Below, in pieces: positions 21,906-27,740 of a stretch of 64,000 nucleotides of DNA; position 1 is the first letter of the stretch; the number at the start of each line of letters is the position of its first letter. A model generated the notes under the pieces. That model worked only from the letters and a program-made list of their open reading frames with translations. It was not told where the DNA came from and did no database searches. Origin of the DNA: Natrinema halophilum (lineage in GTDB: Archaea; Halobacteriota; Halobacteria; Halobacteriales; Natrialbaceae); assembly GCF_013402815.2 (NCBI RefSeq), contig NZ_CP058601.1:2914001-2978000 (forward strand), in the 5' to 3' direction. The position numbers and the translations under genes were made by a program.

Positions 21906-23882
21906 CTACACTTCGTTATCGCCTGCCCGGTGTTCGCTGATGAGCTGGTCGACCATCGCCGCCTTGCGGTCCCGCTTTCGATCCCGCGCGCGCTCGTGCC
22001 AGTCGTCGATTACGGCTTCGACGTCGTCCTCGCGGGCGACGGCGAGTTCGTCAACTTCCTGCATCGCGACGTCGTCGGCGGGGCCGACCGGAATCTCGGC
22101 GTCGAAGAGGAGTTCGTCGGCAATCTCCGAGAGGCCGCCGTCCTTAATGATGACGCGGGGGTCGAACTCCGCCATGAGTTCGGCCGTCGATCGGCCCGCG
22201 CCGCTTGCGTCCCGGATGTAGACGACGTCGCCGGACGCGATGCCGTACTGTTCGTCTGCCTTGCGGATCGCGCCCTTCGTGAACTTCTCTACGACCTTGA
22301 CCGGGACCAACCCCTCTTTCTTCGCCGAGACGTCGCTGAAGTTCGAGTGATCGAGCTTCCAGAGCGCTTTCATTCGCTCGACTTTCTTCTCGAGCGTTTC
22401 GACCTCCTCGCGGGCGTCGTCGCGCTCGCGTTCGAGCCGATTGGCTTTCCGCTCGAGGCGGCTCACCTCCCGATTGCGACGGACTTCTTGTCGTTCCTCG
22501 CGGCGAGCGGTACTGAGCTCCGTCTCGAGTTCGTCGATTCGGTCGTCGCGATCCTCGATGCGTCCCTCGAGGCGCTCGACGTGTGATTGGAGGCGCTCGA
22601 CCTGCCGTTCCAGATCTTTGATTCGCTTTTCCTCTGCGGTAAGCTCGCGGGGTTCGTGTTCGGTTGCCTCTTCTTCATCGCCGGCTTCGTCGTCGGTCAG
22701 GTCCCGCAGGACTGCCTCGACGCTTTCCTCGCCGGCGACGACACGGGCGGTGACCTCACCCCGATCGATTCCCGGCGGGAGCTTGTCCGCGATCCGCCTG
22801 AATTGACCCTCGTGGGCGTCGATGGCGTACAGTGCGGCTGCCATCGCGTCGCGCTGGTGGTCGTTGTCGTAGGGGTGGTCGCGGGTTCGGTGCTGTTTCT
22901 CGTCGATCGGCAGGTCCCGGTCGGGCGTCCAGCCCGCGGCATCGAAGCTCCGGCGGAACTTCTCGACGGTCTCGGGCATCGGCGTCACGTCGGCTGCGAC
23001 GATGATCGGTCGGCCCCGCTCGACGATCCACTCGATTACGTCGGCGGTGTCGCTGGTACGTGAACTCCAGACGTCGAGCACCTCTCCCTCGAGGCCGACG
23101 ATCGCGACGGCAGTCGTCGTTCCGGGATCGATCCCGACGACGACGTGATCTCGGCGTTTGACGAGCGGGCTGAACTCGATGCCGTCGCGGCGCTGGCGCT
23201 CGATCTCGACACGGACGTCGCCCGATCGATTGCGCGAGACGGGAATGTCGTTCGGCTTGGCCTGGACGGTGAAGACGGCGTTTGCGTACCCGCCGTAGGA
23301 CTCCCGAACCTCTTTTTCGAACTCGAGGTTTTCGTCCTCGAGTTCGGATTCAACTTCGCGGGATCGGCGTTTGACGGAGCCGTGAATGCGACGGGTATAG
23401 CGGTCTTCGCTCCAGCCACCGCTGCCGGTCGAGCGGCCCCGCGAGACCTTGACTTCGGTCGTATCCGTAAACGCGGATACCTCGTAACCGACGTTGTGGG
23501 CGGCAAGCCGAGCGGCGGCCTCGGCTTCTTTCATTGGGTCCTTTCCGTAGGGGATTCCGTGGCGTTTCGCGACGCGAGAGAGCGGCTCGGGTTGCTCGTC
23601 ACCGGTCACCTGGACGAGTCGAGTGCCGGCGGGCAGCGAACCGAGGAAGTGGATGAGCTGATCCTTGTCGGCTGCGAGCTCGTACATGTTGTCCGTCGCG
23701 ACGATTGCCGGCTCTTCGTCGTCGATTAGACGCCTGAGTTTCCGGTGAGAAACGACGTCACGGGTGACGTCGTCGCCGTTGAAAACCGTCAGTGCGTACG
23801 ATGGCGCATCACCACGCACGTCACCGCTCTGGATGTCGACTCCGAAGACGACCGCATCGAGCGCACTCGTTCGCGTACTCAC
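21906..23882 (-). CDS. DUF460 RNase H-fold/coiled-coil protein
   Basis: A 658-residue archaeal protein of the DUF460 family. An N-terminal domain (FGVDIQSGDVRGDAPSYAL) is followed by an RNase-H-like core near 290-400 with HVVVGIDPGTTTAVAIVGL and VIVAADVTPMPETV, conserved acidic residues and KQHRTRDHPYDNDHQRDAMAAA. A coiled coil spans about 460-560 (RQVERLQSHVERLEGRIED and similar heptads), and a small C-terminal domain ends the protein. The fold suggests a nuclease or nucleic-acid-binding role; the biochemical function is unknown. I chose the GTG at 23882 (VSTRTSALDAVVFG) because the preceding 32 residues do not look coding. Confidence 0.88.
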   Translation of the reverse strand: MSTRTSALDAVVFGVDIQSGDVRGDAPSYALTVFNGDDVTRDVVSHRKLRRLIDDEEPAIVATDNMYELAADKDQLIHFLGSLPAGTRLVQVTGDEQPEPLSRVAKRHGIPYGKDPMKEAEAAARLAAHNVGYEVSAFTDTTEVKVSRGRSTGSGGWSEDRYTRRIHGSVKRRSREVESELEDENLEFEKEVRESYGGYANAVFTVQAKPNDIPVSRNRSGDVRVEIERQRRDGIEFSPLVKRRDHVVVGIDPGTTTAVAIVGLEGEVLDVWSSRTSDTADVIEWIVERGRPIIVAADVTPMPETVEKFRRSFDAAGWTPDRDLPIDEKQHRTRDHPYDNDHQRDAMAAALYAIDAHEGQFRRIADKLPPGIDRGEVTARVVAGEESVEAVLRDLTDDEAGDEEEATEHEPRELTAEEKRIKDLERQVERLQSHVERLEGRIEDRDDRIDELETELSTARREERQEVRRNREVSRLERKANRLERERDDAREEVETLEKKVERMKALWKLDHSNFSDVSAKKEGLVPVKVVEKFTKGAIRKADEQYGIASGDVVYIRDASGAGRSTAELMAEFDPRVIIKDGGLSEIADELLFDAEIPVGPADDVAMQEVDELAVAREDDVEAVIDDWHERARDRKRDRKAAMVDQLISEHRAGDNEV

Positions 23883-24349
23883 AGGGGGGTATAGGAACGA
23901 GTCGGCTATAAATCCGACGCGGCACTTCTGTCCGTGAGTCAGCCCGGAACTGATTGGTGTCCCGGTCGTGATCGGCACTCTTCCCGAGTAGTGGATGCTG
24001 ACCGCCGATACCGGGATGTGCGAGGCGTTCAGGAGGCGGGCGCTGACGGTACGACGTAGCCAGTGGAGCGGGTATCCGGTTTACAGGCGCGTTTCACCAG
24101 ACGGACCGTCTAGTCCGTTTTCGTGGGTTACGATCCGGTTCTGTCGGGGGCAGTCAGTCAGACGATTTCGCGGTCCTGAATCGGCTGTGAGCGAGAATAT
24201 GAAACAAAAATCATTATTTTGCCTGTGAAGATATAATTACTGAGCCAGTAGTATAAAATTTCATTACGCTTTCTATCGTATACATATCGGGGCCAGCGTT
24301 CCCTGACGACGAATCGAAAGTTTCGTTCCTCAGGTGCGTACGTCAGACC
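23883..24349. other. AT-rich gap ahead of orphan frame and cohesin gene
   Basis: About 470 bp with no supported gene. 24200-24290 is strongly AT-rich (AAAAATCATTATTTTG, ATAATTACTG, TATAAAATTTC) and includes good TATA candidates facing right. It could be the promoter for 24350-24715 or, with a long leader, for the cohesin gene. Confidence 0.5.
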
Positions 24350-24715
24350 ATGTCAGAGAACGAAAATCAAACGGATTCGAAGGCGCAGTCTACTAGCCGA
24401 AACGGTGGCGTCTCGGCAGGCTATCGAACGATATCGGCGCCTCATGGGGGCGAGTACATTTTCGATCGGCAGCCCCGGCGTCGTCACGGGCGTTGCAACG
24501 GCTTAGATTGGCGATTCGCTACTGAACGAGGGACCTCGTTAGTCGCCTTTGCAGACCCTCTCGAGTGGTTCTTGGAAATCAGATCATCTGAGACAATGGT
24601 ACAAACTGACACGGAATCTGTTGCGATGAACGGTTGCACCGAGGGCAGGGGGAGCAACGAGCGCGCTGCAAGGGCCCGTGCGCTTCTGTATTTAGCACCC
24701 ACAGATGGGATGTAA
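24350..24715 (+). CDS. orphan ORF, possibly broken gene
   Basis: An open frame of 121 residues with an ATG start (MSENENQTDSKAQSTSRNGG), behind an AT-rich promoter-like region. The N-terminus looks like a genuine polar haloarchaeal leader, but from about residue 45 the composition is mixed (RQPRRRHGRCNGLDWRF) and unlike a folded protein. It may be the 5' remnant of a degraded gene. No family recognised. Confidence 0.25.
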   Translation: MSENENQTDSKAQSTSRNGGVSAGYRTISAPHGGEYIFDRQPRRRHGRCNGLDWRFATERGTSLVAFADPLEWFLEIRSSETMVQTDTESVAMNGCTEGRGSNERAARARALLYLAPTDGM

Positions 24716-24750: not shown

Positions 24751-26742
24751 ATGACTCATCCGAACGATACAGACGACGATGAACAGTTCTTCGAATCAGA
24801 CACTCCGGCGAATTCGCCCCCCTCACGACGCACTTTCGTACAGGCCGCCGGTGCCGGTGCGGGAACGCTCGCACTCGGGGCGTCACCGGCTTCGGCCCAG
24901 GAGAGTCGGCCGACGGTATCGGTTACGCTCGCTGACGATCAGATCGAATCCGGCGGGGCGACAACCGCAACGATTCGGATCGAGAACTCGCCTGAGGGTT
25001 CGGCCGGCTGTACCACCGAGTTCGCGGTCGACCCCGACGTCGCCCAGATCACTGCGGTCGAACTGGGCGAGTACGGGAGGGATATCATCGAAGACCAGCT
25101 AAACAGCGAAATTGAAGCCAACGGCGGCTCGGTCTCGTCGATCGACCCGAGCGTCTTCGGATCGATCGACGAGACCGAGTACGAGTTGGCAACGCTTCGA
25201 CTCGAGGGCCAGGGGAACGGCACAACCGAACTCGAACTCGTCGACTTCGTGTTGACTCCGCCGGACGATGGCACAATCGAGAACGCAAGCTACGACGCAC
25301 CGTCGGTAACCGTCGGCACGGACTCCGGGTCCGGAGCCGACCCCGTTGCGCTCGACACGCCCACGAATCTCGAAGTCGTCGCCGGGAACGAGACGTCGGT
25401 CGAGGTCTCGTGGAGTTCGGTCTCGAACGCCGTCGAATACGCCGTCTCCGTCGACGGAACGCGGAAAACCTCGACGACTTCGACGAGCGCGACCATCACC
25501 GGACTCGACGCGGGCACGACCTACGAGATCGGCGTCAGCGCCGTCGGGCAGGGCGGCGTCGCGTCCGACGCCGCGACCGTACAGGTAACGACGGCCGCCG
25601 GTGCGCAGGCGGACACGCCAACGCTCACAGTCGACCTCGAAACCGCGATGATCCAGCCCGGCGAGACGACGACTGTCAATTTCGGTCTGACTGAAGCGCC
25701 AACCGGGCTGGTTGGCTTCCAGATCGAGCCCAGCGTCGATACTGAAGTCGCGACCATCGTCGATGCCGAACTCGGCGAGACGTACAGATCGACCCTGTTC
25801 CGCGAAGTCGAGACCGGAGCGGGCTCCGCGATGCTCCGCGCGATATACACCCTCGACGCCGGCACTACCGACATCGATTTCGGTCACGTCGAACTCGAGG
25901 CCGTTGCGAACGGTGAAACCGCTGTCGAGGTCGAGATCGTCCGGCTCGAGGACACGGATGCCAATAGCGTCGAGGCCACGGTCGAGGATGCGACGCTTAC
26001 CGTCGGCGGCCAAAGCGATTCAGACCCCGAGTCGCCCACTCCCCCTGAGGGGCTCGAAGTCACCGCCGAGACCGAGACGTCGGTCGAACTATCGTGGGGT
26101 TCAGTCTCGAACGCGGTCGAATACGCGATATTCGTCGACGGCACACAACAAACGACGACGACGTCGACGAGCGCGACCATCACCGGACTCGATGCGGACA
26201 CGACCTACGAGGTCGGCGTCAGCGCCGTCGGTCAGGGAGGTGCCAGGTCGGACGTGGTAACCGTGCAGGCGACGACGAAAAATGCCGGCAACGGTGAGGG
26301 CGATCAGAACGAGGGCGGCAGTGGCGGCTACCCCGAGTGGGACTCGAGCGTTCTCTACCAGTCGGGTGATCGCGTCCGCTGGAACGGCGAAGTCTGGGTC
26401 GCACAGTGGAAAAATCAAAACGCGGAGCCCCGCTACGAGGTGAATTACGCCTGGGCTCCACTAAACGGCGAGATCCCGCTCGAGGTGGACTACCTTGCAA
26501 AGATCAAACCGAGCGCGACAACAGTCGGAGTCGGCGAACGAATCGTTTTCCAGGTTCGGGAGCAGACGGCTTCCAGTTACTGGGTCGACACGCTTCAGTG
26601 GGATCTCGGTGACGGAACGACCGCCAGCGGCTGGTACGTCGGTCACTCCTACGATTCCAGTGGCACCTATGCCGTGACTCTCACGGCGGTGGATAACTTG
26701 GGACGACAGACAACCCACGAAATCGAGATCATTGTCTCCTGA
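24751..26742 (+). CDS. Tat-exported cohesin/FN3/CBM/PKD protein
   Basis: A 663-residue secreted protein. Residues 25-49 are a Tat signal (SRRTFVQAAGAGAG, then ALGASPASA). The modules in order are: a cohesin-like beta sandwich at about 54-188 (SVTLADDQIESGGATTATIRI); fibronectin III at 203-281; a second cohesin-like domain at 291-418; a second fibronectin III at 430-509; a carbohydrate-binding module of the CBM5/12 type at 527-570 (YPEWDSSVLYQSGDRVRWNG with aromatic W548/W553/W568); and a PKD domain at 580-662 (WDLGDGTTASGWYVGHSY). No glycosidase or other catalytic domain is present. It would sit outside the cell, binding chitin or another polysaccharide and possibly other proteins. No enzyme gene adjoins it. 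Confidence 0.85.
   Translation: MTHPNDTDDDEQFFESDTPANSPPSRRTFVQAAGAGAGTLALGASPASAQESRPTVSVTLADDQIESGGATTATIRIENSPEGSAGCTTEFAVDPDVAQITAVELGEYGRDIIEDQLNSEIEANGGSVSSIDPSVFGSIDETEYELATLRLEGQGNGTTELELVDFVLTPPDDGTIENASYDAPSVTVGTDSGSGADPVALDTPTNLEVVAGNETSVEVSWSSVSNAVEYAVSVDGTRKTSTTSTSATITGLDAGTTYEIGVSAVGQGGVASDAATVQVTTAAGAQADTPTLTVDLETAMIQPGETTTVNFGLTEAPTGLVGFQIEPSVDTEVATIVDAELGETYRSTLFREVETGAGSAMLRAIYTLDAGTTDIDFGHVELEAVANGETAVEVEIVRLEDTDANSVEATVEDATLTVGGQSDSDPESPTPPEGLEVTAETETSVELSWGSVSNAVEYAIFVDGTQQTTTTSTSATITGLDADTTYEVGVSAVGQGGARSDVVTVQATTKNAGNGEGDQNEGGSGGYPEWDSSVLYQSGDRVRWNGEVWVAQWKNQNAEPRYEVNYAWAPLNGEIPLEVDYLAKIKPSATTVGVGERIVFQVREQTASSYWVDTLQWDLGDGTTASGWYVGHSYDSSGTYAVTLTAVDNLGRQTTHEIEIIVS
25357..25593 (+). 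repeat. fibronectin III repeat, copy 1
   Basis: Encodes the first FN3 module of the cohesin protein. It is closely similar to copy 2 at 26038-26277: both share VSNAVEYA, SATITGLDA and VGVSAVGQGG-type blocks, and stretches of identical DNA. This points to a recent tandem duplication together with the preceding cohesin unit. Confidence 0.8.
26038..26277 (+). repeat. fibronectin III repeat, copy 2
   Basis: The second FN3 module. Most differences from copy 1 are conservative (for example SVEVSWSS versus SVELSWGS). The paired cohesin domains are much more diverged, so the FN3 copies may have been kept alike by gene conversion. Confidence 0.8.
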
Positions 26743-26813: not shown

Positions 26814-27740
26814 TCAGTCGTCCGAATACGGAATCTCGAGTGCGTCGCCGTCGTCGGGGAGGATGACGTCACCCTCGAAGACCTCCCTGGCCTGCCGTTC
26901 GTGGCCCGTGGTGTCGCCTGCATACCGGGAGGACAGGTGCATCAGCGCGAGGCAGTCGGCACCGGCCCGGTTCGCGATTTCTGCGGCCTGTCGTGCCGTC
27001 GAGTGGGCGGTATCGGTGGCCCGATCGGCGCGGTCGTCGGCGAACGTCGCGTCGTGGATCAACAGGTCGGGATCGTCGACGACGCCGATCGTCGACTCGG
27101 TGGGACGCGTATCGCCCGTGTAGACGACCGCCCGGCCCGGACGCGGGTCACCGACTACTTGATCGGGCTCGACGACGGTGCCGTCCTCGAGTTCGACGGA
27201 TTCGCCCGCGTGGAGTGTCGAGAATTTCGGGCCGACCGGGACGCCCAGCTCTTCGGCGCGCTCGCGGTCGAAACGGCCTTTGCGTTCGTCTTCGACGAGC
27301 GCGTAGCCGACCGACCGGGTGTCGTGATCGGTATCGAACGCCCGAATTTCGTACTCTTCCGCGCGGGAGGCGACGTCCCCGCCGCCGACCTCGTTGATCC
27401 GAACGGGAAACGAGGGGTGGTTTCCGAGGGCGGACACGAGCGATTTGAGCTGGCGGCGCGTGCCGCGGGGTGTGTAGATTGCCAGTGGCTCCTCGCGGTC
27501 GTTGAAGTCCATCGTCTGGAGCAATCCGGGAATTCCGAAGACGTGATCGCCGTGGAGGTGCGTGACGAACAGTTGCGAGACGGAAAACCCCGTTCCGAAC
27601 CGCATCATCTGGCGTTGGGTCCCCTCGCCGGCGTCGAACAGTAGTCCCTCTCCGTCGCGGGCGACGAAGACGCTGCTCGGATTCCGCCCCGTCGTCGGAA
27701 TCGCACCGGCCGTCCCCAGGAACGTCACGCGCAGTGGCAT
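26814..27740 (-). CDS. rnz: ribonuclease Z (tRNA 3' processing)
   Basis: A 308-residue metallo-beta-lactamase-fold endonuclease that removes 3' trailers from tRNA precursors. Start region: MPLRVTFLGTAGAIPTTGRN. The zinc motif is THLHGDHVFGIPGL (HxHxDH). Further ligands are in VVYTGDTRPTE (Asp) and LMHLSSRYAGD (His). The GDTRP loop and the long flexible arm (about 150-180) typical of the short RNase Z form are present. It is monocistronic as seen here, converging with the cohesin gene, with 71 bp between the stops. Confidence 0.94.
   Translation of the reverse strand: MPLRVTFLGTAGAIPTTGRNPSSVFVARDGEGLLFDAGEGTQRQMMRFGTGFSVSQLFVTHLHGDHVFGIPGLLQTMDFNDREEPLAIYTPRGTRRQLKSLVSALGNHPSFPVRINEVGGGDVASRAEEYEIRAFDTDHDTRSVGYALVEDERKGRFDRERAEELGVPVGPKFSTLHAGESVELEDGTVVEPDQVVGDPRPGRAVVYTGDTRPTESTIGVVDDPDLLIHDATFADDRADRATDTAHSTARQAAEIANRAGADCLALMHLSSRYAGDTTGHERQAREVFEGDVILPDDGDALEIPYSDD

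Follow-up and report, generated by a model that had tools for sequence, protein, structure and literature searches.

A Tat-exported, probably scaffoldin-type protein with two predicted cohesin-fold modules in the haloarchaeon Natrinema halophilum and the dockerin-enzyme clusters of its relatives

Introduction

What would an exported archaeal protein with two cohesin-like domains and no enzyme of its own hold together? The question is raised by a gene, here called P0001, in a 64,000-nucleotide stretch of the Natrinema halophilum genome (contig NZ_CP058601.1, positions 2,914,001 to 2,978,000), which we refer to as the window. An earlier note on this DNA proposed that the product may act as a scaffold or an adhesin on polysaccharides. 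The organisms known for cellulosomes are anaerobic bacteria and fungi (PMC12484212); a survey of 2010 detected no components of such complexes in archaea (PMC2838879). For ANME archaea, multi-cohesin proteins have been reported in a paper that cites Peer et al. 2009 for the absence of such proteins from other archaea (PMC9012536). According to a 2023 genomics study of cellulose-degrading haloarchaea, the mechanisms involved are almost unknown (PMC10267330). A search of open-licence papers brought up no description of a scaffoldin from haloarchaea; one in a subscription journal or a preprint is possible.

Results

P0001 consists, in order, of a cohesin-like module, an FN3 module, a second cohesin-like module, a second FN3 module, a weak CBM5_12 match, and a PKD module (Table 1). 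The Pfam fn3 domain was found twice (E value of 1.1e-19, best stretch at residues 202 to 271), the twin-arginine (Tat) signal scores above the NCBIfam cut-off of 16.7 bits, and searches of Pfam and NCBIfam found no catalytic domain. The secreted, enzyme-less protein with two FN3 modules and a PKD domain that the earlier note had described is thereby borne out. Its chitin-type CBM5/12 fares less well: a match is present, but the score falls below the Pfam cut-off of 26.2 bits, as does that of the homologue at locus L041 (24.0 bits). By profile, predicted fold, and signal score, P0001 is an exported noncatalytic protein with two cohesin-fold modules.

Table 1. Features of the P0001 locus (positions are those of the window)
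Feature	Position	Strand	Basis
Left border of island site, gene taken to be DUF460-type	21906..23978	-	conserved border, 29 Natrinema genomes
Relic, start of lost dockerin-GH5 gene	24350..24433	+	tblastn, best E 2e-6
P0001, scaffoldin-like gene, 663 aa	24751..26742	+	intact ORF; homologues in nine other genomes
Tat signal of P0001, residues 24-49, RRTFVQ	24820..24897	+	TIGR01409, 19.6 bits
Cohesin-fold module 1, residues 54-191	24910..25323	+	custom profile, AlphaFold, Foldseek, VIA-align
FN3 module 1, about residues 202-280	25354..25590	+	Pfam fn3, two stretches
Cohesin-fold module 2, residues 290-421	25618..26013	+	custom profile, AlphaFold, Foldseek, VIA-align
FN3 module 2, about residues 430-508	26038..26274	+	Pfam fn3; PDB 1k85 FN3 match at 428-505
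CBM5/12-like module, residues 529-568	26335..26454	+	Pfam CBM_5_12, 18.2 bits, E 0.0025
PKD module, about residues 584-662	26500..26736	+	Pfam PKD_4, E 2.7e-12 (match 585-662)
Right border of island site, gene taken to be RNase Z-type	26814..27740	-	conserved border, 29 Natrinema genomes

A custom profile identifies the two cohesin-like segments as copies of one module. The Pfam cohesin profile (PF00963) matched neither P0001 nor its separate modules, even at an E value of 10, and P0001 is therefore not filed as a member of that family; its modules are too divergent for the profile. NCBIfam likewise gave no match that would assign them as cohesins, and a sequence-profile search of the PDB with the module alignment returned only a weak cohesin match, to the scaffoldin ScaC (E value of 0.24). 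AlphaFold models, built from the window sequence and three named relatives, reached a pLDDT of 87.4 for module 1 and 92.5 for module 2. In Foldseek searches of the PDB, the best 48 rows for module 1 and the best 43 for module 2 were all cohesins, with top E values of 1e-8 and 1.9e-9, respectively. Structural alignment with VIA-align gave a Z score of 13.8 between module 1 and 4uyp_C (rmsd of 2.9 over 132 residues) and of 16.2 between module 2 and 1g1k_A (rmsd of 2.0 over 129 residues), and the cohesin of Archaeoglobus fulgidus (2xdh) matched module 2 with a Z score of 15.5. The first structures other than cohesins were an adhesin domain (9ifr; Z scores of 11.2 and 12.9 for modules 1 and 2), followed by pilins. 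Both modules are thus confidently predicted to have the cohesin jelly-roll fold. The earlier claim of two cohesin-like domains stands as regards the fold, not as regards the Pfam profile, and the structure prediction that it called for ranks cohesins first for both segments, ahead of the ordinary beta-sandwich families that would have spoken against it.

A fold shared with known cohesins is no proof of function. Pfam cohesins above the cut-off occur in 107 of the 125 family genomes, in many cases with no Pfam dockerin alongside, so that single-cohesin proteins, and the cohesin fold alone, do not imply a dockerin partner. The N. halophilum genome itself encodes a 268-aa protein with one Pfam cohesin and a C-terminal membrane segment (C1:3553848). 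Single-cohesin membrane proteins of this kind are widespread and distinct, and we left this one out of the system considered here.

Full-length homologues of P0001 were found in nine other genomes when the 125 genomes of the family were searched; three of the homologues come from named sources, namely, Natrinema ejinorense and Natrinema salsiterrestre, which match G059 and G069, and Halopiger goleimassiliensis. Scaffolds of this type carry 2 to 3 cohesin-fold modules per protein. Around each of the nine homologues lie genes for Tat-exported proteins with a dockerin at the C-terminal end. The cluster proteins tested with Pfam, from three loci (L041, L042, and L043), were GH5 cellulases, GH10 xylanases, and one FN3 protein, with Dockerin_1 scores around the Pfam cut-off. 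Dockerin-bearing glycoside hydrolases are therefore encoded together with the scaffold in the nine relatives and not at the window locus, which retains a stub only. At three loci (L041, L045, and L048), the product of the gene after the scaffold is small, contains the module once, and has a hydrophobic segment at its C terminus; it is likely a membrane anchor. No relatives of P0001 were found on viral contigs, and plasmid records matched it at the level of the PKD and CBM modules only.

The same module occurs in larger proteins. Genome G008 encodes a 2096-aa protein with 10 copies and G007 a 1768-aa protein with 8, both with a GH5 catalytic domain in front; in each genome the GH5 scaffold is followed by a single-module anchor of 258 to 261 aa and a long row of dockerin proteins. 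Gene lengths and order in G007 match Table 1 of PMC10963439 (637, 610, 1,755, 258, 759 ... 589, 741, 577 ... 815 ... 835), the start codon of the 1768-aa frame lying 13 residues upstream of that of the published 1,755-aa protein, and we therefore take G007 to be Natronoglomus mannanivorans. Mannan, cellulose, and xylan all support growth of this organism. In the published account, the scaffold is entered as an endoglucanase (MCU4972_2718, "1,755-aa GH5/CBM6") and the anchor (MCU4972_2719, 258 aa) as an S-layer glycoprotein; dockerins are classed with putative carbohydrate-binding domains, and there is no mention of a cohesin, cellulosome, or scaffold (PMC10963439). Equating its 815-aa "Dockerin/PKD" protein with the scaffold at L046 on account of their equal lengths was dropped, as gene order points to the module-plus-dockerin protein at L055. 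Ten module matches were also found in G126, which was matched to Halococcoides cellulosivorans HArcel1 (PMC10267330).

Across the 125 genomes, 42 have both the module and a Pfam dockerin, 17 the dockerin only, 13 the module only, and 53 neither, which corresponds to an odds ratio of 10 (P value of 5e-9, shared ancestry ignored). The 12 genomes with a scaffoldin have 2 to 18 dockerins each; the median for the remaining genomes is 0. A dockerin lies within 1.5 kb of 21 of the 45 listed single-module genes, compared with an expectation of about 0.2%, in a count that ignores ancestry and includes many orthologues.

Related arrangements were seen outside the scaffold clusters and within them. A 541-aa protein of genome G280 (L087:7650-9275), from another family, has three modules, ends in a dockerin, and is encoded next to three large dockerin proteins; it would be an adaptor-like scaffold. 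Two proteins within enzyme clusters (L055:9457-11904 and L053:8393-10636) combine one cohesin-like module with a dockerin of another subtype at the C terminus and are possible adaptors. Genomes G032 (L072 and L073) and G030 (L074) encode a protein of 2087 aa that has 14 Pfam cohesins and is hydrophobic in a segment at its C terminus, adjoining subtilisin-like (S8) proteases that bear cohesins and a dockerin; this second type of haloarchaeal scaffold looks like a surface-held protease complex. Many genomes, among them those of L057, L058, and L059, contain a gene pair in which one gene encodes a PhoX-like protein (about 890 aa) that has a single module and a dockerin, and its neighbour a single-module protein of 260 to 290 aa (a longer frame in L059) that has a C-terminal membrane segment. 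Such pairs perhaps reflect a general way of retaining enzymes at the haloarchaeal cell surface.

The site of P0001 could be compared across 29 Natrinema genomes by DNA search. Its two border genes, presumably of DUF460 type on the left and RNase Z type on the right, mostly lie close together, with a gap as short as about 40 bp. In six genomes (G066, G059, G069, G072, G052, and G068) the gap measures about 12 to 30 kb, and in N. halophilum it measures 2.9 kb and contains only P0001 and the disrupted beginning of the gene for the first dockerin enzyme. This relic matches, by tblastn, the enzyme upstream of the scaffold at the same spot in all nine relatives. The simplest reading is that an island was cut down to its scaffold gene, with loss as the presumed direction of change. 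Since the site holds only P0001 and an enzyme stub, the scaffold is orphaned in this genome.

The C-terminal part of P0001 is 59 to 64% identical to those of the other Natrinema scaffolds, which share 68 to 90% among themselves, and no branch in the scaffold set is longer than that of P0001. Relative to those scaffolds, change in P0001 is higher at constrained and fourfold sites alike, and its constrained codon positions still change less than its fourfold sites. This pattern would fit either relaxed constraint or an older divergence.

Two convincing dockerins were found in the N. halophilum genome with a custom dockerin profile (E values of about 1e-34; the next match was at 0.2). One, at C1:2476175, forms the C terminus of a GH81 beta-1,3-glucanase of 881 aa, whose gene is intact and lies about 460 kb from P0001; the enzyme has a twin-arginine motif close to its N terminus. 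The other, at C1:909629 (L002 / L006), belongs to a gene that also encodes a carbohydrate-binding module and is split over two reading frames, either a decayed gene or a sequencing error. The earlier note had seen no dockerin-bearing gene in the window, which these two positions confirm, and had judged that the scaffold idea would fall if the genome held none at all; it holds one intact GH81-dockerin gene and one disrupted gene. The same profile found no dockerin on six GH5 enzymes encoded elsewhere in the genome. In an alignment, both dockerins belong to the subtype of the island enzymes: that of the GH81 enzyme is 57 to 70% identical to the island dockerins and 33 to 49% identical to the other haloarchaeal subtypes aligned. 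The two calcium-loop repeats of type I dockerins are present, and the first and last loop aspartates are invariant in the 15 aligned dockerins, including both from N. halophilum. Pfam dockerin scores ranged from 16.9 to 29.5, straddling the cut-off of 22.9.

Discussion

We interpret P0001 as a scaffoldin that is exported by Tat and belongs to a cellulosome-like system of haloarchaea with putative cohesin-dockerin binding, at a probability of about 0.8. The cohesin fold, the dockerin-enzyme clusters around all nine homologues, and a GH81 dockerin of the same subtype in the genome support a scaffold rather than an adhesin. For N. halophilum itself the scaffold idea holds in its fold and its dockerin, while the enzyme cluster is gone and the scaffold has hardly any partner left, or none. 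P0001 would leave the cell folded through the Tat pathway, and exported glycoside hydrolases would dock on its two modules by their C-terminal dockerins, with the CBM5/12-like, FN3, and PKD modules spacing the complex and holding it on insoluble polysaccharide. In relatives the partners would be the GH5 and GH10 enzymes of the same island, and in some of them a separate membrane-anchored single-cohesin protein could keep a dockerin enzyme attached to the cell surface. In N. halophilum, the GH81 beta-1,3-glucanase would be the only intact partner left, so that P0001 would be either a minimal two-site scaffold for this enzyme or a relic; we infer that it still works.

Clearly less probable, and still to be taken seriously, is that P0001 no longer docks anything, being the descendant of a scaffoldin that after the loss of its enzymes is decaying or is kept solely as a polysaccharide-binding adhesin. 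The missing enzyme cluster with its remaining stub, the disrupted frame of one of the two leftover dockerin genes, and the long branch of P0001 would all follow from such a history. This reading is harder to reconcile with a 663-codon frame that is intact and keeps its Tat signal and both modules, with the lower rate of change at constrained codon positions than at fourfold sites, and with the intact GH81-dockerin partner in the genome. It is unlikely that the cohesin-fold modules are structural or sugar-binding surface domains, in the relatives as well, with the dockerins binding something else: the adhesin domain 9ifr is similar in fold and published papers suggest a substrate-binding role for haloarchaeal dockerins, but cohesins outrank 9ifr in VIA-align, dockerin enzymes surround every homologue, tandem arrays of 8 to 10 modules adjoin dockerin enzymes, and single-module anchors lie beside dockerin genes. 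That the modules are ordinary bacterial Ig-like domains or another noncohesin beta-sandwich is hardly credible, as Foldseek and VIA-align place cohesins first for both, against a sub-threshold Pfam Big_12 match to module 2 (18.3 bits, cut-off 27).

Beyond the P0001 locus, the scaffoldin interpretation extends to a wider claim that we consider probable, namely, that aerobic haloarchaea build true cellulosomes on cohesins invisible to Pfam, that published degraders of cellulose and mannan use them, and that the system is being lost in N. halophilum. Tat-exported dockerin enzymes would dock on scaffoldins and on membrane-anchored cohesins, the scaffoldins offering 2 to 3 cohesins in the P0001 type and 8 to 10 in the catalytic, GH5-bearing type. 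If this is true, the cellulosome principle reaches aerobic, salt-saturated archaea with Tat-exported enzymes, which would help to explain how haloarchaea attack insoluble cellulose and mannan and would provide a source of salt-stable docking parts.

Among the closest known systems, the Natronoglomus mannanivorans cluster MCU4972_2716 to MCU4972_2735 (L054 and L055 of G007) shares its module family with P0001. There, MCU4972_2718 comprises a GH5 domain, eight modules, and a C-terminal region, MCU4972_2719 is the single-module anchor, and most cluster enzymes end in dockerin-like tails. Its scaffold is catalytic with eight modules, whereas P0001 is noncatalytic with two. The cohesin of Archaeoglobus fulgidus (2xdh) is archaeal and has the fold of module 2, but it is described as noncellulosomal and without an enzyme cluster, and it shares about 15% sequence identity. 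The scaffoldin-like proteins of ANME archaea (PMC9012536) are archaeal and carry several cohesins, as P0001 does, yet they bear a dockerin of their own and pair mostly with binding proteins of ABC transporters instead of cellulases. Bacterial scaffoldins such as CipA of Clostridium thermocellum and ScaB of Acetivibrio cellulolyticus resemble P0001 in being noncatalytic and exported and in joining several cohesin-fold modules to a carbohydrate-binding-like module; the relatives of P0001 further share with these systems a place beside dockerin-tagged glycoside hydrolases and separate cohesin anchors at the cell surface. P0001 differs from them in being archaeal, aerobic, and Tat exported, with cohesins that Pfam does not see and that number 2 to 3 per protein in its family, and in having FN3 and PKD linkers, a CBM5/12-like module in place of CBM3, and no dockerin of its own.
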